Shown here: piece after piece, positions 39,189 through 61,599 of the stretch
How positions within the stretch are numbered: position 1 is the stretch's first letter
Layout: every line of letters begins with the position of its first letter
Assembly (NCBI RefSeq): GCF_040218225.1
Contig: NZ_JAVJQO010000002.1
Span: 62,001-126,000, forward strand
Length of the DNA: 64,000 bases
Reading direction: 5' to 3'
DNA from: Gracilimonas sp.
Lineage (GTDB): Bacteria > Bacteroidota > Rhodothermia > Balneolales > Balneolaceae
Position numbers and translations under genes: made by a program
Notes under the pieces: model-generated
Database searches by the model: none
What the model saw: the letters and a program-made list of their open reading frames with translations, nothing else
Told to the model about the DNA's origin: nothing

Positions 39189-40079
39189 ATGTATAAATAT
39201 CTACTGATCATTATAATTTGGTTATTCGTTTCTTGTAGGTCTGGTGGACACAAAACAACTAATATTGATTGGGATACTGTTCAGGACTCAACCAATATCG
39301 TCTATACTATAAAAGGATTGGATGGCCCTGAGGCTGTTCGTTATGATCCTGAACAGAATGTGTATTTCATTTCCAACTTCACTGGCGGAGGGAATACTCA
39401 GGACTCAACAGGGTTCATTACAAAAGCTGATGCTGAAGGAAATATACTCGAATTGAAATTTATGAAAGGAACCAATGGCGCCCCTCTTCACGCTCCCCGT
39501 GGGATGTTCATTATTGATAACACGCTATGGGCTGCGGATGTATTAGGTGTTCATGGTTTTGATAAATCAACCGGTGAACAAACCGATTTTATTGACTTCT
39601 CTGAGTTTGAAGTTGGGTTCTTAAATGATGTCTCAGCCAATACTGAGGGAACCCTCTTTGTTACTGACACCGGCTCTAATCGTGTTTTCAGAATTGAAGC
39701 CGATACACATTCCATATTTTTAGACTCGCTGCCGGAAGCACCAAATGGAATCACGCTTAATCCGGAGAATCAACAATTTGTACTTGCTCCCTGGGGTGGT
39801 GATCAAACTTTCAGAAGCTTTGGCAATTCTGAAGAACTTACTGAATATGGAATTCTCGACGGTGGCTATTTTGACGGAATTGAATTCCTGCAGTCAAACT
39901 TGTTGGCAGCAAGCCAACAAGACTCCAGCATCCGCTATTTTGATGGTTCTGAAAGCACAATTCTGATTAAAACTTTGGGACGACCCGCCGATATAGGAAT
40001 TAATACCAATCTGAATCATGTGGCAGTTCCGTATATTGCATTAGATCGCGTAGACATCTGGAATCTCACAAAAAAATAA
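39189..40079 (+). CDS. SMP-30/gluconolactonase-like beta-propeller lipoprotein
   Basis: A 296-residue lipoprotein (lipobox LFVSC, C16). The mature chain is a six-bladed propeller of the SMP-30/NHL type: 'GLDGPEAVRYDPEQNVYFISNFTG', 'HAPRGMFIIDNTLWAADV', 'LNDVSANTEGTLFVTDTGSNRVFRIE', 'APNGITLNPENQQFVLAPWG' and 'DGIEFLQSNLLAASQQDSSIRYFDG'. Active-site acidic and Asn residues of SMP-30 (N152-, D-type positions) seem to be conserved in the DVSANTEG and PNGI strands, but I cannot confirm metal binding. Function unknown. It lies 13 bp from the histidine kinase gene downstream and probably shares its transcript. Confidence 0.75.
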   Translation: MYKYLLIIIIWLFVSCRSGGHKTTNIDWDTVQDSTNIVYTIKGLDGPEAVRYDPEQNVYFISNFTGGGNTQDSTGFITKADAEGNILELKFMKGTNGAPLHAPRGMFIIDNTLWAADVLGVHGFDKSTGEQTDFIDFSEFEVGFLNDVSANTEGTLFVTDTGSNRVFRIEADTHSIFLDSLPEAPNGITLNPENQQFVLAPWGGDQTFRSFGNSEELTEYGILDGGYFDGIEFLQSNLLAASQQDSSIRYFDGSESTILIKTLGRPADIGINTNLNHVAVPYIALDRVDIWNLTKK

Positions 40080-54087: not shown

Positions 54088-55800
54088 CTACCCCACCCTG
54101 AACTTCAGTTCATCAATTTTAGACAGAATTTCGTCCCGATCCATCTCACGATATCGCTCCGGAAGTAATTCTTTAGACGTACATTCTATCACGGCACTGA
54201 GCGTCTGAAGTTCAACTTCTTCCGGATAGGTTGGCGGAAGAAAATCGGCTAAAGCCAGGTCCAGAATTTCGGGGGTTACTTTCTTTCTTCCCTCAGCAGC
54301 TGCGCGGAATTTAGCTCGGGTTAAAGCGGCTTCCATATCGGCACCTGAAAAGGTTTTGAAACCCTCTTCAATCACGGCAGGAATGTAATCTTCAGTCATC
54401 TGAAGGCCGGTTTTCTTTTTCATGGCTTCAAAGAGCTCCACACGTTCCTCATTGGTATGAGGCGGAAACAGGGCAAGGTGTTCCTCGGCTCTTCCCTGTC
54501 GCTTCAGGTCAATAGGCATGAGATCGGGACGCGCGGTCATCAGGAACCATACAATACGACCCCGGTTTTCAGTATCGCTCATAAAGGTAGCTATTTGTGA
54601 GAATACACGGCTTGAAACGCCACTGTCACCGCTTGCATCACGATCACCGAGGTAGGCATCCGCTTCATCAATCATCACCGCTACCGGCGACATCGCCTTC
54701 AAAAGAGAAAGTATTTTTTCCAGGTTTCCTTCCGTCACCCCTTGCCACTGACTTCGGAAGTTTTTGAGTTTCACCATGGGAATACCAACTTCACTCGCGA
54801 AGCAGGTTACCAAAAAGGTTTTACCGGTTCCTACCGGACCACAGACCAGATATCCCATAGGCATTACATCCTGTCGGCCCGATTTTAAAGCTTTGACTGC
54901 CTGTCGGAGATGTTTTTTTACATGGGTGTGGCCTGCTACATTGTCCAGAGAGTATTGGGTTTCTACAAACTCCAGCAACCCGTATGCTTCTGCCTCAATC
55001 AGCTCTTTCTTGGTTTCTGACAAACCCTCGAAAGTGATTCTCTCCTTATTCTCCCGGGCATGAGATAACACGCTTCGGATGTTCACAAAATTCAGTCCGG
55101 CCGTTTGCTGAGCCACGATATCCGGCTTTACATCTGAGAGTTCTTTCCAGGTATCATTCTTGGTCTCGAAATCAATGAATTCCCTTCTCTCCCGTTCTCC
55201 CGGAATATTGATTTTTATATCTGTGGTATAAGGATTTTGAACGAGCGTTTTATTTAAGTCAGCCAGGTTTTCCGTAATCATCACCGTGGTGAAATCAGAA
55301 GCCAGAAACATAGGGTCGTGAGCCCAGCGCGACAAATAGACCATCGAAGTTCGGTCTTCATTTCCAATCGAAGCTGCATCACTCATCGGTACTATAGTCT
55401 CGGCATAATCAATAATGAGGGCCACACTTTTCTTTTGATCCAGACGAAGACGGAAATACTGTTCCAGCAACGACATTACCCTCACGGGGTCCTTAGGCAT
55501 CTTCTTGGCGTATTCCGTTCCCACCAAACTATCCCGTCCGGCGATGGCCTGGTTGAAATCTGCCTGGGATTCCTTATCCCTGAAATAAATACCTGAAGCG
55601 CGATCATAGAAAATCACGAAATCCCGGGCACCGAAGAACTCATCCGACAGAAAAGACTTCAGGCGATGAAATTGAGTTCCTTCATCCGTTTTAAGAGACA
55701 CTAAATCGTGTACGTTCCCGTGCAGTATAAACTGATTGATGGTTCTGCTCAGATACTTTCGAGCAAATTCCTGAGACCATTTTGGATAGTGATCAAACAT
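54088..55800 (-). CDS. AAA+ ATPase with degenerate first and intact second ATPase domain
   Basis: A 570-residue protein. Residues about 20-250 look like a decayed AAA domain: a Walker-B-like VALIIDYAE (126-134) is seen but no P-loop. Residues about 280-510 form an intact AAA+ domain: Walker A GPVGTGKT (321-328), Walker B VAVMIDEAD (373-381), sensor 1 T422, and an arginine cluster in DLKRQGR. The 'GLSETKKELIEAEAYGLLEF' linker precedes it. Two-lobed organisation with only D2 active resembles Ycf46-type AAA proteins. It lies on the same strand as a PspA locus 2.2 kb upstream, with only an Ech and a CNNM-type gene between. No signal peptide or TM, so cytoplasmic. Confidence 0.85.
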   Translation of the reverse strand: MFDHYPKWSQEFARKYLSRTINQFILHGNVHDLVSLKTDEGTQFHRLKSFLSDEFFGARDFVIFYDRASGIYFRDKESQADFNQAIAGRDSLVGTEYAKKMPKDPVRVMSLLEQYFRLRLDQKKSVALIIDYAETIVPMSDAASIGNEDRTSMVYLSRWAHDPMFLASDFTTVMITENLADLNKTLVQNPYTTDIKINIPGERERREFIDFETKNDTWKELSDVKPDIVAQQTAGLNFVNIRSVLSHARENKERITFEGLSETKKELIEAEAYGLLEFVETQYSLDNVAGHTHVKKHLRQAVKALKSGRQDVMPMGYLVCGPVGTGKTFLVTCFASEVGIPMVKLKNFRSQWQGVTEGNLEKILSLLKAMSPVAVMIDEADAYLGDRDASGDSGVSSRVFSQIATFMSDTENRGRIVWFLMTARPDLMPIDLKRQGRAEEHLALFPPHTNEERVELFEAMKKKTGLQMTEDYIPAVIEEGFKTFSGADMEAALTRAKFRAAAEGRKKVTPEILDLALADFLPPTYPEEVELQTLSAVIECTSKELLPERYREMDRDEILSKIDELKFRVG

Positions 55801-55873: not shown

Positions 55874-57151
55874 TTATTCAATTAAAATGAGCTTAACCGT
55901 TTCAATGCGACTGGGTGTGGCTTTACTGATAATGAATTTCTTACCCTCAACCACCACTTCCTCATTTACTTTCGGAATACGCCCCAAATGATTAATGATG
56001 AATCCCGCTACGGTATCATACTCGGAAGGTTCCAGTGGGAGTTCAATTTCATCAAATTTTTCCATTAACTCCTGAATTTCCACATTCCCGCTTACCACAT
56101 ACGTATTTTCGGAAAGCTTTTTCATGATCTCGTCTTCCACATCATATTCGTCCTGAATATCACCAACTACCTCCTCCAGTAAGTCCTCGATGGTGACCAT
56201 CCCCGCAGTACCTCCGTATTCATCCAACACAATAGCTACCGACATGTTCGACTGCCGGAACTCGGTAAGCAAGTCTTTGGATTTCTTACTGGAAGGAACC
56301 AGCTTAACCGGACGAATAATTTCGTTTAAAGATTTCGGAGTGTGAAAGAAATCATGTGCAAATACGACTCCGATTACATCATCAATAGACTCTCTGTAAA
56401 CCGGTAGTTTTGAATGTCCCGATTGTATGAACATATTCAAAACTTCTTCAATGGGCGTATCTTTTTCTACTGCTTCTATTTCGATACGGGGAATCATTGA
56501 GTCTTTAACCCGCTTGTTGGACAGTTCCAGAACATTGTGTAGGATCTCTGAATCGTCTTCATCAATATCTTCACTGCCTCCGCTGTCCCGAAGCTCTTTA
56601 AAGATCATTTCCACATCCTGCCGGCGATAATAGCTTTCTACTACCTCAGCATCTTTTACCAGCCAGCGAATCAGAATATTAGATGAGCCTTTCGAAATTT
56701 CGATAAGCGGACGAAACAGATAATAGGCGACCCGCAGAGGAACCGAAATCACTGCGATCATATTATCAGCCAATGCCCTGAAAATAGCTTTGGGCAAAAT
56801 CTCACCAAATAACATGATAACCACAGAAGCAATAATAGTCTGGATAATCAGGATTTGAATTTCAGAAGGAACAACCCCAAACCAGGCTTCTCCATAAACC
56901 TGAATCGGTTCAACAAGGAAAATTGCCATGAATGTAGCATAGAGTACATTAACAATATTATTTCCAACAAGGGTTGTTGTCAGAAATGTTTCCGGTTTAC
57001 GGGTAAAAAACTCTATAGAATTGGACAGAAAGTTATTCTTCCGTGAGGCTACTTCCAGCTTGAGCTTATTGGCTGTTACAAAAGCAATTTCAGAACCAGA
57101 GAAAAAGCCACTCAGCAATATGGTTATGACAATCAGGACAAACTCAAACAT
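55874..57151 (-). CDS. CNNM/CorC-HlyC family membrane protein (DUF21-CBS-transporter-associated)
   Basis: A 425-residue protein. Residues about 1-195 form the DUF21/CNNM domain with four helices (MFEFVLIVITILLSGFFSGSEIAFV start; GEILPKAIFR). Residues about 205-340 are a CBS pair (DSMIPRIEIEAVEKDTPIEEVLNMF...). Residues about 350-425 are the CorC_HlyC/TerC-associated domain (GNVEIQELMEKFDEIELP...TVAGFIINHLGRIPKVNEEV). These proteins export or sense magnesium or act in metal homeostasis; the older name 'hemolysin' is not informative. It has 72 bp to the AAA gene and 88 bp to the Ech gene on the same strand, so an operon is possible. Confidence 0.93.
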   Translation of the reverse strand: MFEFVLIVITILLSGFFSGSEIAFVTANKLKLEVASRKNNFLSNSIEFFTRKPETFLTTTLVGNNIVNVLYATFMAIFLVEPIQVYGEAWFGVVPSEIQILIIQTIIASVVIMLFGEILPKAIFRALADNMIAVISVPLRVAYYLFRPLIEISKGSSNILIRWLVKDAEVVESYYRRQDVEMIFKELRDSGGSEDIDEDDSEILHNVLELSNKRVKDSMIPRIEIEAVEKDTPIEEVLNMFIQSGHSKLPVYRESIDDVIGVVFAHDFFHTPKSLNEIIRPVKLVPSSKKSKDLLTEFRQSNMSVAIVLDEYGGTAGMVTIEDLLEEVVGDIQDEYDVEDEIMKKLSENTYVVSGNVEIQELMEKFDEIELPLEPSEYDTVAGFIINHLGRIPKVNEEVVVEGKKFIISKATPSRIETVKLILIE

Positions 57152-57239: not shown

Positions 57240-58019
57240 CTATTTACCGGAGAAATTGGGCTTTCTCTTTTCGAGAAAAGCACTGGTTCCTTCCCTAAAA
57301 TCAGCAGTACCGCATAATTCTCCAAACAGACTGGCTTCAGATTCATATCCTTTTCCTGAGCCTACCTGTTTTACCGCCTGAAGAGCATTTTTAATAGCTA
57401 ATGGTCCTTGCTTCATAATTTTATTCAGCATTGATTTGGCTTCATCAATTGCAGAATGCCCGGTAACCTGATTTACCAATCCTATTTCGAAGGCTTCAAC
57501 AGCTTTAACCTGCCGGCCAGTCATAATCATTTCAAGGGCCTTGCCTCTACCCACAAGCTGGGTAAGCCGTTGGGTGCCTCCATAACCCGGAATCAATCCC
57601 AAACTAACTTCGGGTAACCCAAAAGCAGCCTTTTCAAAAGCAATTCGCAAGTGGCAAGCCATAGCCAATTCACATCCGCCACCCAGAGCATATCCGTTTA
57701 CAGCCGCAATCACAGGAATGGTCAGATCTTCGATCTTCTGAAAAATATCCTGTCCTTTTTTTGATACTTTTTCTCCTGAAACGGGATCTAATGAGCTCAG
57801 TTCTTTGATATCAGCACCGGCAACAAAAGCCTTTTCACCAGCCCCGGTAATTACCAGCGATTTAACCTGATAATTCTCTTTGATGTCATCAATTGCTTTA
57901 TCGAGTTCCTCTAATACCTGATTATTCAGGGCATTGAGTTTATCGGGACGATTAATGGTGAGCGTACAAATGCCGGATTCATCGACTTCTGTAAGAAGCG
58001 TTTCGTAAATCTGGTCCAT
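57240..58019 (-). CDS. Enoyl-CoA hydratase/isomerase (crotonase family)
   Basis: A 259-residue crotonase-fold enzyme. Both catalytic glutamates of true hydratases are present: one in ALGGGCELAMACH and one in GLPEVSLGLIPGYGGTQRL. The oxyanion-hole stretch GEKAFVAGADIKEL is intact. It should hydrate short- or medium-chain 2-enoyl-CoA in beta-oxidation or related pathways. No other fatty-acid genes are nearby. It follows the coiled-coil membrane gene by 3 bp, so it is probably co-transcribed with the PspA locus even though no functional link is known. Confidence 0.93.
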   Translation of the reverse strand: MDQIYETLLTEVDESGICTLTINRPDKLNALNNQVLEELDKAIDDIKENYQVKSLVITGAGEKAFVAGADIKELSSLDPVSGEKVSKKGQDIFQKIEDLTIPVIAAVNGYALGGGCELAMACHLRIAFEKAAFGLPEVSLGLIPGYGGTQRLTQLVGRGKALEMIMTGRQVKAVEAFEIGLVNQVTGHSAIDEAKSMLNKIMKQGPLAIKNALQAVKQVGSGKGYESEASLFGELCGTADFREGTSAFLEKRKPNFSGK

Positions 58020-58022
58020 ATT

Positions 58023-58907
58023 CTATTCTTTGACTTTCTTAGCGGGTTTAATTTCCGTTTTCACTTCGTCTGAGAGTTCATCCAAAATGGAATCAAAATC
58101 CAGATCGTTCTCCCACTCCGTAGTGTACTCAGGTAAAATATCCTGATCTAAGTCGTCAATCAATTGTGAAGTTTCCTCAACTTCAGTCAGCAGATTATCA
58201 AGCTGGAAGCCAATCTCTTCAGGATTACTCATCGTCATAGACTGCTCGTAGATATATCTGACGGCATCTTCAATGGTTTCAAGATGAGTTTCACACACCA
58301 GATATTTCTCTTTGGCCACGTTAAATTTCTTCAGGCGCTTTTGCATGATGGCAACACGCCGGGCTTTTGTGCGCTTCAGCTTCTCCGATTCCAGGGTCTT
58401 AATTTCTTCAATTTGCCGTACTACCTCTTCCTTTAAGCTGCTTTCCAGTGATGTATTCAAATACACTTCATACCGCTTAATCAAATCAAGCAACGTCAGG
58501 TAATTACCCAGTAGCTCGTCAATTTTTTTACCGATGTTATCCAATAAGCCTTGCGAACTGTAAGGAAGCTTCTCAAAGTTCTCCTGAACCAGTTTAGCCA
58601 AATGCTTCAGTACCAGAAATCTCTTTTGAGATTTATTATCCAGCGATTGAAATAATTCTTTTTCGTTATTGGCTGCGTGACGTTCTTTGATTTTCTTCAG
58701 CTCCAGTTTTTTACGGAAGCGCGGTAATTTGGGAACTATACCCAGGTACATTAACTCAAGTCCAAAAACAGAAGTGAGCAAAAGACTGGAAAAATCTCCC
58801 AGTCCGGTCATAAAAAAAGCGGTAAGCGTGGAAACCAGCAATACCCCCAAATTTATGGGGTTCATAAAAGCTTCCCGGGTATAGTTGATATTCAGTTCGT
58901 CACTCAT
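58023..58907 (-). CDS. Two-TM coiled-coil protein of the PspA locus
   Basis: A 294-residue protein with no family I recognise. Two hydrophobic helices (about 17-34 and 40-58) lie near the N-terminus, the rest being charged helix with coiled-coil character ('ELKKIKERHAANNEKELFQSLDN', 'LKEEVVRQIEEIKTLESEKLKR'). An acidic segment with 'EYTTEWENDLDFDSILDELSDEV' precedes a basic tail. The N- and C-termini should both be cytoplasmic. It overlaps the truncated PspA paralogue by 4 bp (58904-58907), which suggests tight coupling of their synthesis. A natural guess is a membrane receptor for PspA or its short relative. Confidence 0.7.
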   Translation of the reverse strand: MSDELNINYTREAFMNPINLGVLLVSTLTAFFMTGLGDFSSLLLTSVFGLELMYLGIVPKLPRFRKKLELKKIKERHAANNEKELFQSLDNKSQKRFLVLKHLAKLVQENFEKLPYSSQGLLDNIGKKIDELLGNYLTLLDLIKRYEVYLNTSLESSLKEEVVRQIEEIKTLESEKLKRTKARRVAIMQKRLKKFNVAKEKYLVCETHLETIEDAVRYIYEQSMTMSNPEEIGFQLDNLLTEVEETSQLIDDLDQDILPEYTTEWENDLDFDSILDELSDEVKTEIKPAKKVKE

Positions 58908-59368
58908 GATTCAGGTTCTGATGAATTATCTTTGCTGTCTGAAGCCGGTTTTTTATTGCCAATCGTTTTTTCGGTTCTGATTTCATCAGCATGCTTTTCT
59001 ATTTCGTTATAGAGCATACCCATTTCGGCTTTTACCTGCTTCAACGTCTGCTTGGCTTTTTGCTTTTTCAGCTCTTCGTCAAGTTCTTCTTTCTTAATTT
59101 TACTGCCGGCCTCAGTATCTTCGTCTTCCAGGCTATCCATAGCTACATCAAGCCGGGCTTCTACGTTTGTAACCTTTTCACGCACTTTTCCCAGGAATTC
59201 ATCGACCGTTTCGAGAAGATTATCAGCATTCATATTATTGACTGCCTGGGATATTTTCCCTTTCTGCTCTGCTCTTTTCAGCCGTTCTTTAGCCTCTTTA
59301 ATACGCCGATAGTGTTCTTTGTACTCTTCTTTGAGGCGTTCCCGTTCTTGTTCGCTTTTGCTGCTCAT
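58904..59368 (-). CDS. Short PspA paralogue (C-terminal-half duplicate)
   Basis: A 154-residue charged helical protein. It aligns with residues about 131-220 of PspA upstream: RIKEAKERLK (22-31) with KIQEAKEALR (130-139); EARLDVAMDSLE (70-81) with EARMEIALDSID (181-192); QVKAEMG (111-117) with QFKMEMG; and both end in KT[IV]GNK (134-139 here, 240-245 in PspA) before a Ser/Lys/Asp tail. It therefore keeps the C-terminal helices of PspA but lacks the N-terminal membrane-binding helix and the long hairpin. It lies 9 bp after PspA and overlaps the next gene by 4 bp. Regulatory or capping subunit is a guess. Confidence 0.75.
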   Translation of the reverse strand: MSSKSEQERERLKEEYKEHYRRIKEAKERLKRAEQKGKISQAVNNMNADNLLETVDEFLGKVREKVTNVEARLDVAMDSLEDEDTEAGSKIKKEELDEELKKQKAKQTLKQVKAEMGMLYNEIEKHADEIRTEKTIGNKKPASDSKDNSSEPES

Positions 59369-59377
59369 GGCTATTTC

Positions 59378-60130
59378 CTATGAACTGCTTTTTTCTTTGT
59401 TGCCTACAGTCTTGGAGCTGTCTTTTTCTTTAGCTGGTTCTTCTTCGTCAATATTGATAGAACCGCTCTTTTCGCCCATTTCCATCTTGAATTGCTCAAC
59501 TAATGATTTAGCACGCAGTTTCTCAGCATTAGCTTCGATTTCCATAGTCTCGGTGTCAATGCTATCGAGTGCGATTTCCATACGGGCTTCGTTCTTAGCT
59601 GACTGCTCATTGATACGGTTGATCATCTCATCATGAGTGGCATCAATCCCGCCCACTTCAAACTGTTCCAGCGTATCCGCAATTTTGGCTTGCCATTCAG
59701 AGCGCTCACTTGCGCGAAGAGCTTCTTTAGCTTCCTGTATCTTGCGATCTTTCTCACGCATAAACACTTTTTTCACCTTAATAGCTTTTTCGTAAGCCTT
59801 TTCTGCAAAGGCAAGCTGATCTTTGGTGTGTGCGTAATTTTCTTTCGCCTTTTCTAGTTGAAGCGCATAACCCTCAGCAATATCATCCCGATTAGCTTGG
59901 ATAGCTGACTTAACTTTAGCTGTTAAATCCTGTATCGCTTTTTCATTGCGATTCATTTCCTTTTGGAGCATCAACAGGTTGGCTTTAACCGTAGCGATAT
60001 TCTCGTTCATCTGGGGAATTTGATCGTTTAAGTCCCGGATGTTTTGCTCAAGGATGAGTTTTGGATCCTCCATTGAGCTTATTAAGCCACCGAACATTGA
60101 TTTGATAGCGCGGATAAATCGTTGAAACAT
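59378..60130 (-). CDS. PspA/IM30 (Vipp1) family protein, ESCRT-III superfamily
   Basis: A 250-residue PspA/IM30 family protein. The N-terminal amphipathic membrane-binding helix 'MFQRFIRAIKSMFGGLISSMEDP' is followed by the long helical hairpin 'LILEQNIRDLNDQIPQ...ALQLEKAKENYAHTKDQLAFAEKAYEKAIKVKK', then helices ending near 220 and a Lys/Ser/Glu tail with KTVGNK. PspA and Vipp1 assemble into ESCRT-III-like rods on the inner membrane and protect it under stress. There is no pspB/C/F next to it; instead come a truncated copy of its own C-terminal half and a two-TM coiled-coil protein. A σ54 promoter is not visible in the 75-bp upstream gap. Confidence 0.93.
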   Translation of the reverse strand: MFQRFIRAIKSMFGGLISSMEDPKLILEQNIRDLNDQIPQMNENIATVKANLLMLQKEMNRNEKAIQDLTAKVKSAIQANRDDIAEGYALQLEKAKENYAHTKDQLAFAEKAYEKAIKVKKVFMREKDRKIQEAKEALRASERSEWQAKIADTLEQFEVGGIDATHDEMINRINEQSAKNEARMEIALDSIDTETMEIEANAEKLRAKSLVEQFKMEMGEKSGSINIDEEEPAKEKDSSKTVGNKEKSSS

Positions 60131-60205: not shown

Positions 60206-61549
60206 TTAAAGCTCAAATGCCCTGCTGCCGTTTTTGTCGATTGTGTGACTTACCAAATGCACTGCCTCGGGTTTAGTTTCGGCAATAGTTACTGCCCCGA
60301 ATAACTGCTCGCTTGCAGCGTCTATTGCTGATGGCTTGTTCGTATAACCAGTCAAAATTGTTTCACCTTTTGAAATTTTGTCTCCAATTTTCTTTTGAAG
60401 AACAATTCCGGCCTGTGGATCTACGTCTTCTTCCTTGGTTTTACGGCCTGCACCCAGCTCAACAGAAGCCATCCCAATTTCAAAAGAATTCATCTCTGAT
60501 ACATATCCATCCTTTTTGGCTTTAATTTCAAATTCGTAACTGGCTTTTGGATATTTTTGGGGTGATTTAATCATATCCGTATCTCCACCCTGCTCTTCAA
60601 CAATATCCAGCCACTTCTGAAAAGCAGCTCCGTTTTCAATTTGTTCTTTGCTGATTTCAATCCCCTCCCTAACATCTCCAGCCTTTCCACCAAGATAGAT
60701 CATGGTTCCTGCCAAAAGATGAGTAATCTCCATGATATCATCAGGTCCATCGCCATGCATGGCATCTATACATTCTTCCACTTCCAGCCAGTTTCCGATT
60801 TTATATCCAAGGGGCTGATTCATATTGGTCACATACGCAATCGTTTCTTTTTCAAACTGAGTACCAATCCCAACCAATGCCTCTCCCAGTTTGATGGCAT
60901 CTTCTGTTGTCTTCATAAAGGCGCCGGAACCCACTTTCACATCCAGCACCAAAGCATCAATTCCCTCAGCCAGCTTCTTACTCATAATACTTCCCGCAAT
61001 CAGTGGAATGGATTCTACGGTGGCTGTTACATCACGGAGAGCGTATAAGCGTTTATCAGCTGGAGCAATTTCCTTGGTTTGCCCGGCAAGCACCAGATTA
61101 TGTTTTCCGATAATTTCTTTATACCGGGCCAAATTCATATCTACTGTAAATCCCGGAATTGACTCCAGTTTGTCAAGCGTTCCGCCGGTATGACCTAACC
61201 CCCGTCCCGATATCATTGGCACAGGAACTCCGGCAGCAGCCACCACCGGTGCTAGAATCAGCGACAGTTTATCACCCACCCCGCCTGTTGAATGCTTATC
61301 CACTTTCTTTCCTGAAACATGCGAGAGATCAACAATTTCTCCGGAATGAAGCATTGCTTCCGTGAAAGCAGCCGATTCTTCATCATTCATTCCATTCAAG
61401 AAAGCGGCCATCAGAAACGCACTAATTTGATAATCAGGAATCTCATCGGCTGTATATAAATTAATAAGATGCTGAATCTCTTCTTTCTCCAGAGTTTTCC
61501 CATCTCGTTTTTTGCGAATAAGTGAAACTATATTGTATTTTGAATCCAT
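60206..61549 (-). CDS. deoA: Thymidine phosphorylase / pyrimidine-nucleoside phosphorylase
   Basis: A 447-residue enzyme that phosphorolytically splits thymidine or uridine to the base and (deoxy)ribose 1-phosphate. KHSTGGVGDKLSLILAP, ISGRGLGHTGGTLDKLESIPGF and the 'VLDVKVGSGAFMKT' block are all diagnostic. The C-terminal domain with 'AGRKTKEEDVDPQAGIVLQKKIGDKI' matches the PYNP_C fold. I choose ATG 61549 (MDSKYNIVSLIRKKRDG) rather than the upstream start at 61585. Whether deoxyuridine/thymidine only (DeoA) or both pyrimidines (Pdp) are used cannot be decided. It lies 75 bp from pspA on the same strand and is divergent from pdxB. Confidence 0.94.
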   Translation of the reverse strand: MDSKYNIVSLIRKKRDGKTLEKEEIQHLINLYTADEIPDYQISAFLMAAFLNGMNDEESAAFTEAMLHSGEIVDLSHVSGKKVDKHSTGGVGDKLSLILAPVVAAAGVPVPMISGRGLGHTGGTLDKLESIPGFTVDMNLARYKEIIGKHNLVLAGQTKEIAPADKRLYALRDVTATVESIPLIAGSIMSKKLAEGIDALVLDVKVGSGAFMKTTEDAIKLGEALVGIGTQFEKETIAYVTNMNQPLGYKIGNWLEVEECIDAMHGDGPDDIMEITHLLAGTMIYLGGKAGDVREGIEISKEQIENGAAFQKWLDIVEEQGGDTDMIKSPQKYPKASYEFEIKAKKDGYVSEMNSFEIGMASVELGAGRKTKEEDVDPQAGIVLQKKIGDKISKGETILTGYTNKPSAIDAASEQLFGAVTIAETKPEAVHLVSHTIDKNGSRAFEL

Positions 61550-61599
61550 ATCGAAGTATAGGCTTAATCCAACTTTTTTTCTCATTCAATCAGCACTTT

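Follow-up and report, generated by a model that had tools for sequence, protein, structure and literature searches.

The window analysed here, a stretch of 64,000 nucleotides from a contig of Gracilimonas sp., contains a complete pspA gene that is followed on the same strand by a gene for a protein of 154 residues, HYP154. The last gene of the same cluster encodes AAA570, a tandem AAA+ ATPase. The initial annotation, made from the sequence alone, had placed the 250-residue PspA and the short reading frame at this locus, and both were confirmed (Table 1). HYP154 is an old relative of the C-terminal half of PspA that is kept under selection, the tails of both proteins carry the same short motif, [KR][TS][ILVM]G (hereafter, the tag), and the occurrence of HYP154 and of the tag is coupled to that of the ATPase.

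Table 1. Features of the pspA cluster and of a third tagged protein; positions are those of the window unless another contig is named
Feature	Position	Strand	Remarks
pspA, complete PspA/IM30 protein of 250 residues with a tail of about 30 residues	59378-60130	(-)	Pfam PF04012, E 1.9e-16, residues 2-208
PspA C-terminal tag KTVGNK, residues 240-245	59396..59413	(-)	
HYP154, half-PspA, 154 residues	58904-59368	(-)	Start 9 bases past pspA stop codon
HYP154 tag KTIGNK, residues 134-139	58952..58969	(-)	Immediately past the last helix
AAA570, tandem AAA+ ATPase, Cdc48/Vps4-like	54088-55800	(-)	Pfam AAA, E 2.3e-24, residues 318-442
AAA570 Walker A GPVGTGKT, residues 321-328	54817..54840	(-)	Identical in 20/20 aligned homologues
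TM294, coiled-coil protein with hydrophobic N-terminal region	58023..58907	(-)	No Pfam family
CNNM/CorC-HlyC (GldE-like) membrane protein, conserved neighbour	55874..57151	(-)	Family scan
Enoyl-CoA hydratase-like gene (presumed), conserved neighbour	57240..58019	(-)	Gene order
deoA-like thymidine phosphorylase gene (presumed), conserved neighbour	60206..61585	(-)	75 bases upstream of pspA
DUF4342 membrane protein, end EEKTVGKKKK	L162:1078-1527 (G000:C6, about 585 kb)		On another contig than the window

HYP154 is a homologue of the C-terminal half of PspA

BLASTP aligns HYP154 with PspA at 33% identity over 134 columns (expect value, E, 6e-13). The Smith-Waterman score of 165 compares with a mean of 56 for shuffled sequences (Z 13.3), and a score of 132 with a mean of 52 (Z 9.7) once both tails are cut off; with shuffles that preserve the heptad register, Z is 13.0 for the full sequences and 10.5 with the tails removed. 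Not one of 1000 shuffled scores reached the real score in any of these four tests. Profile-profile alignment with hhalign (40 HYP154 and 31 PspA sequences) gives a probability of 98.4% and E 4.4e-15 over PspA residues 125-222, which bears out the correspondence to residues of about 131-220 that had been read from the sequences, and the comparison of hidden Markov models proposed as its check thus found the relation. The initial annotation had itself raised the possibility that generic coiled-coil composition explains the likeness. This is ruled out, because even the heptad-preserving shuffles never reach the score, and the coiled-coil protein TM294, taken as a control, gives hhalign probabilities of only 0.2% against HYP154 and 4.4% against PspA.

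In the window's genome, the product of pspA is the only match to PF04012. HYP154 itself reaches the curated cut-off of no family in Pfam or NCBIfam and has no match to PspA_IM30, a Pfam search with 67 HYP154 homologues returned only scattered weak matches to unrelated coiled-coil families, and the HYP154 profile, compared by sequence with solved structures, found one flagellin only (E 0.22). The protein falls short of full PspA/IM30 membership, in that its alignment begins at PspA residue 125 and it has neither helix α0 nor a complete α1-α2 hairpin; judged by its sequence, it is a half-length PspA paralogue and not a PspA.

An AlphaFold2 model of HYP154, built with the 67 homologues, consists of helices at residues 3-45, 48-83 and 88-133 and a disordered tail, with no strand. 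Its mean predicted local distance difference test score (pLDDT) is 79.9 and its predicted template modelling score (pTM) 0.32, so the packing of the helices is uncertain. The accessible text of PMC12358876 gives the helix order of PspA as α0, α1, α2+3, α4, α5, and from the model we infer, exact helix boundaries included, that HYP154 keeps roughly α3-α5. With about 130 structured residues, it is without α0, as the initial annotation had it, and without most of the α1-α2 hairpin, which had been described as missing.

Conservation and selection

When the 57 genomes nearest to that of the window were searched with HYP154, it was found in its own place beside pspA in 44, only PspA answered in nine and nothing did in four. 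Loci of pspA were read in 132 genomes, made up of every PspA-positive genome in two groups, 53 among the nearest 57 and 79 in the class sample outside the window's order; about 18 further class-sample members of the window's own family were left out of this number. HYP154 is present in 115 of the 132, always on the same strand and with its start no further than 169 bases past the end of pspA, so the short gene is conserved in related genomes, a point on which the initial annotation had made its reading depend. In seven relatives (G023, G024, G029, G052, G455, G458 and G466), PspA, HYP154 and the ATPase all went unmatched; the assembly is small (1.5-2.4 Mb) in five of them, but not in G052 and G458.

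In three within-genus pairs, the proportion of synonymous differences in HYP154 (pS) is 0.75-0.81, near saturation, and that of nonsynonymous differences (pN) is 0.07-0.10. Such a low pN despite nearly saturated synonymous sites means that HYP154 is under purifying selection, which rules out recent decay. The 'truncated copy' of the initial annotation is therefore indeed a half-length PspA homologue, but an old paralogue under selection and not a recently broken copy. The tag is unchanged in the same three pairs and the residues past it vary (pN 0.20-0.31, from few codons). Besides the tag, the most conserved positions are K13, K17, H19 and R21, in an N-terminal segment unlike PspA.

A common C-terminal tag

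From genome to genome, the tails of PspA and HYP154 are free to change in both sequence and length, and the one short stretch that recurs is the motif [KR][TS][ILVM]G. The residue after it is mostly K, R or N in PspA; in HYP154 it is mostly R. Among ATPase-bearing genomes, with the tail of PspA taken as everything past the core and that of HYP154 as the last 45 residues, the distinct tails number 115 for PspA, of which 101 contain the motif, and 110 for HYP154, of which 107 do; shuffled tails lead one to expect 1.4 and 1.1. The ending KT[IV]GNK that had been noticed in both proteins of the window is thus real and far above chance. In the alignment of 40 HYP154 homologues, K134 is invariant and T135 is conserved to at least 90%; in the wider alignment of 67, the tails align badly and the motif drops out of the columns conserved to more than 90%. 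The second position is Thr or else Ser, as the motif pattern itself demands. Two tags are found in HYP154 in all 14 genomes that combine HYP154 with an untagged PspA, versus 13 of the 101 other genomes with HYP154.

A scan of the window's genome with the DNA pattern KT[IV]GxK yielded one more convincing C-terminal case, a membrane protein of the DUF4342 family (PF14242). Of 54 related genomes with DUF4342, 51 were examined for the tag. It is present in 21 of 25 ATPase-bearing genomes of the window's own family and in none of 14 from other families of the order; among 11 genomes without the ATPase, G012 alone has it, and G016 (ATPase not found, 71% complete) is untagged. This distribution makes the DUF4342 tag look like a late gain within one family. 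Within 25 residues of a protein end, the motif was found in PspA, HYP154 and DUF4342 and in three open reading frames (ORFs), on L159 (60 residues), L228 (171 residues) and L233 (62 residues), which we judge to be spurious. The window also has an ORF at 39189-40079 with KTLGR 36 residues from its end; we take it for a probable lipoprotein whose folded part contains the motif.

The ATPase AAA570

The second half of AAA570 is a classical AAA domain in which GPVGTGKT (Walker A), VMIDEAD (Walker B) and QWQGVTE, a pore-loop-like W-x-G segment, are found in 20 of 20 homologues; the last of these presumably resembles the pore loop of Vps4. The first half is without a Walker A motif in 19 of the 20 when searched with a loose pattern, and the sole match (GVVENGKT, in L060) falls at a site where its relatives lack the motif. 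The AlphaFold2 model (mean pLDDT 79.8, pTM 0.63) matches both AAA domains of Cdc48/p97 with Z 18.6 and a root mean square deviation (rmsd) of 5.3 over 470 residues (7lmz); other p97 chains give Z 18-20 at an rmsd of about 10, which reflects a different domain angle. It also matches the yeast Vps4 cassette with Z 18.9 and an rmsd of 3.5 over 263 residues (3eih). Given the match of the model to p97 and the missing first Walker A, AAA570 is a tandem ATPase of the p97 kind whose first domain has degenerated, and it fits both the Vps4/Cdc48 class of cassettes and the type of double AAA+ protein with an inactive first copy.

In six genomes of family f16 (G263, G428, G433, G450, G456 and G468), the match of the ATPase to the profile stops at about residue 504-511 of 570, its C-terminal region having diverged; PspA is untagged there. 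Outside the class, distant relatives at 28-32% identity occur on five large Paenibacillaceae plasmids, and no pspA annotation was seen near the gene in the four plasmid regions opened (L148-L151; Brevibacillus, Aneurinibacillus and Paenibacillus). In G314, of the same phylum and another class, one contig (L146, G314:C160) has an ORF that we read as TM294-like, an AAA570-like gene and then a coiled-coil ORF of 236 residues. No pspA was recognised among the ORFs of these 10 kb, nor did the other 60 genomes of that order give AAA570 matches at E 1e-50; transfer or a misbinned contig is a possible explanation.

Co-occurrence of the ATPase, the tag and HYP154

Among the nearest 57 genomes, PspA is found in 53, HYP154 in 44 and the ATPase in 43. 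In a sample of 155 genomes from the class, which we take to be Rhodothermia, the ATPase is present in 144 of 150 PspA-positive genomes and in none of the five that are PspA-negative. The combinations were counted in the 132 genomes with a pspA locus read, a C-terminal stretch of 40 residues in PspA and of 62 in HYP154 being searched for the tag. Every one of the 119 genomes with the ATPase has the tag in PspA or HYP154 or both: 95 in both, 10 in PspA only and 14 in HYP154 only. Of the 10 with the tag in PspA only, eight have no HYP154 at the locus (one of these loci, G387, is cut by a contig end) and two have a HYP154 with the variant KTVF or KTFG. The ATPase was not found in the remaining 13, nine of which have neither HYP154 nor tag, and four of which keep both. 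All nine retain PspA, and eight of them TM294.

On a tree of PspA, made by a quick method with the tails excluded and no bootstrap, the nine genomes represent two losses, one in a clade of eight and one in G012, whose sister of the same genus, G030, keeps everything. Absence of HYP154 with the ATPase kept falls into two clades, of two and five genomes, in all of which PspA is tagged. Genomes that retain HYP154 beside an untagged PspA occupy between one and three positions on this tree.

Gene order and neighbouring genes

The order deoA-pspA-hyp154-TM294-enoyl-gldE-aaa570 on one strand is kept, as far as each locus reaches, in each of the 65 HYP154-bearing loci that were read from the window's order, some of which come from the same or near-identical genomes and are hence not all independent. 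Among 33 loci that contain gldE, aaa570 follows it in 26, five end too early and two (L055 and L056) have aaa570 on another contig. In G084, of another order, the ATPase and pspA are both present and lie far apart on one contig, at 240 and 2,056 kb.

The start codon of TM294 overlaps the stop codon of HYP154 (ATGA), and we read the hydrophobic N-terminal region of its predicted product as a probable membrane anchor. TM294 was considered as a hidden PspA/Snf7 relative and rejected on the hhalign values given above, Snf7 of Pfam being matched by one of 28 members (E 0.021). In G431 (L142:3028-4802), TM294 is duplicated in tandem beside pspA-hyp154. The enoyl-CoA hydratase-like gene is probably not part of the machine discussed below.

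A possible ESCRT-III/Vps4-like module

The interpretation that we favour, with a confidence a little better than even, is that HYP154 is the adaptor of a bacterial ESCRT-III/Vps4-like module and tags PspA polymers for AAA570. In such a module, PspA would form a membrane-bound polymer onto which HYP154 could dock via its α4-α5 half. With no membrane helix and only a remnant of the hairpin, HYP154 should neither bind the membrane via α0 nor extend the polymer. The disordered tails of PspA and HYP154 would present [KR][TS][ILVM]G as a docking or loading signal, and AAA570 would engage these tails, pull on the tagged subunits and remodel or dismantle the polymer, much as Vps4 acts on ESCRT-III. 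Binding of the tag by AAA570, binding of HYP154 to PspA and disassembly as the outcome are what we infer here. The role of adaptor appears the most likely one because the tag is common to HYP154 and PspA, is doubled where PspA is untagged, and HYP154 is absent where the ATPase has been lost. The initial annotation had suggested a co-transcribed subunit that caps or regulates the polymer. Action on the polymer fits the presence of a conserved half-PspA directly after pspA, and the comparative evidence, namely the tag held in common, the doubled tags and the absence of HYP154 from the nine genomes, points to recruitment of an AAA+ ATPase.

A broader proposal, to which we give rather less than even credence, is that the class has a machine of the ESCRT-III/Vps4 type, assembled independently of that of archaea and eukaryotes, in which the inactive first domain of AAA570 would read K[TS][ILV]G on PspA, on HYP154 and, in one family, on DUF4342. 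At least two tags would be needed where HYP154 is present, which would explain why HYP154 carries two when PspA carries none.

Several observations weigh against the adaptor interpretation. HYP154 and tags are kept in four genomes in which the ATPase was not detected, G016 (71% complete), G430 (92%), G448 (89%) and G457 (89%); missing contigs may explain these, but G430 is not very incomplete. The ATPase was lost only twice and the PspA tag between one and three times, too few events for a sign test to become significant, and in our weighing the case for coupling rests on the consistency of the combinations. No MIT domain was matched in AAA570 by Pfam, and the N-terminal half of the model aligns with the D1 region of p97, in a comparison in which a fold missed by Foldseek could not show up. 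Foldseek found no match for the HYP154 model, whose pTM is low. The motif is not in excess genome-wide: KT[IV]GxK was matched 14 times versus 12 in the reversed control and KT[IV]G followed by a polar residue 29 times versus 48, with DNA patterns that miss KS, KL, KM and GTG-coded variants, so the signal lies in the position near C-termini. Finally, G012, which has no ATPase, HYP154 or PspA tag, retains KSVG in a DUF4342 protein encoded elsewhere, and the survival of that tag speaks against a strict ATPase-only reading.

HYP154 could instead be a cap or chain terminator, the α4-α5 part occupying the hairpin of the last PspA subunit so that growth stops, with the tag merely a tether to a common partner. 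HYP154 does retain the region that packs across the neighbour's hairpin in PspA without most of the hairpin itself; packing of α5 on the hairpin is described in the accessible text of PMC12358876. The spacing of 9 bases between the two genes also makes co-expression likely. However, one would look for a cap in every genome whose PspA polymerises, yet the nine genomes without ATPase and tag keep PspA and not HYP154, as do seven others with PspA and the ATPase, and the tags in HYP154 and their doubling beside an untagged PspA are left unexplained. Of the two main rivals, we regard this one as unlikely, and we doubt to much the same degree the other, in which the reader of the tag is not AAA570 but, for instance, a phosphothreonine reader or a factor of the membrane or its periphery, with AAA570 merely sharing its fate. 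The Thr or Ser at the second tag position, as in phosphorylation sites, and the tagged DUF4342 of G012 would suit such a reader; TM294, kept in eight of the nine tagless genomes, is a poor candidate for it. Against it stands the presence of AAA570 even where it is encoded far from pspA, as in G084. Disordered tails are, moreover, commonly engaged by AAA+ ATPases.

More doubtful still is the view that HYP154, though derived from PspA, has become an independent scaffold and partners TM294 or GldE in some process of the envelope in which PspA polymers have no part. Conservation of K13, K17, H19 and R21 in a segment that differs from PspA is what one might expect of such a scaffold, but HYP154 stands beside pspA in all 44 of the nearest genomes that have it and has the tag in common with PspA. 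Almost no probability remains for a decaying duplicate, an annotation artefact or an effect of coiled-coil composition, in view of the pS and pN values, the presence of HYP154 across the class sample and the heptad shuffles.

Relation to known systems

The literature searched, which was available in part and in which the coverage of subscription journals is small, yielded nothing on the homology of the half-subunit, on the tag or on the coupling to the ATPase. For function, the statement of the initial annotation that no case had been characterised therefore holds within that literature, although the neighbourhood is probably already partly in print. The neighbourhood of CBH24266.1, an accession that we take to be that of a Salinibacter ruber protein, is, as it appears in the accessible text of Ravi et al. 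2024 (PMC11237479), perhaps the same as that described here, HYP154 included. That text describes PspA with a double AAA+ protein whose N-terminal copy is inactive, which is probably the same type of ATPase as AAA570, and a PspA/Snf7 gene with a third, PspA-like coiled-coil gene in Bacteroidetes; TM294 may be what is there called Snf7. In the same portion of the paper, the third gene is not identified as the C-terminal half of PspA, and there is no tag and no joint loss of ATPase, tag and half-subunit. PspAA, according to the portion of Ravi et al. 2024 (PMC11237479) consulted, is likewise a small protein encoded next to pspA. It consists of three helices and a four-stranded β-sheet, whereas the HYP154 model has three helices and no strand, and HYP154 aligns with PspA itself.

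In comparison with PspA and Vipp1 (IM30), the bacterial members of the ESCRT-III superfamily, HYP154 aligns with PspA residues 125-222 only, is without α0, α1 and most of α2, and is encoded beside a complete PspA. To our knowledge, neither the tail nor the tag exists in the PspA of E. coli, and HYP154 is the first ESCRT-III relative described that consists of the C-terminal half alone and has long been kept in that form. Whether PspA or Vipp1 has a counterpart of Vps4, be it PspF or another ATPase, is described as unclear in the accessible text of Liu et al. 2021 (PMC8281802). A 2024 survey in mBio (PMC10936438), as far as its text was available, confines systems of vps4 plus ESCRT-III to archaea and eukaryotes, and the part of PMC13051332 consulted names chaperones for Vipp1 disassembly. 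To the question left by Liu et al. 2021 (PMC8281802), the present locus offers candidates for the ATPase, for the tag that recruits it and for the adaptor, and the two joint losses of ATPase, tag and half-subunit are a natural experiment in which PspA survives without the motor.

The closest parallel is with ESCRT-III and Vps4, the archaeal Cdv system included, where an ESCRT-III relative with short motifs in disordered C-terminal tails is likewise paired with an ATPase of the Cdc48/Vps4 class that has a similar predicted cassette. We know of no MIT-interacting motif that the tag [KR][TS][ILVM]G resembles. AAA570 differs from Vps4 in having no MIT domain recognised by Pfam and in its tandem, p97-like build with a first domain that is without Walker A.

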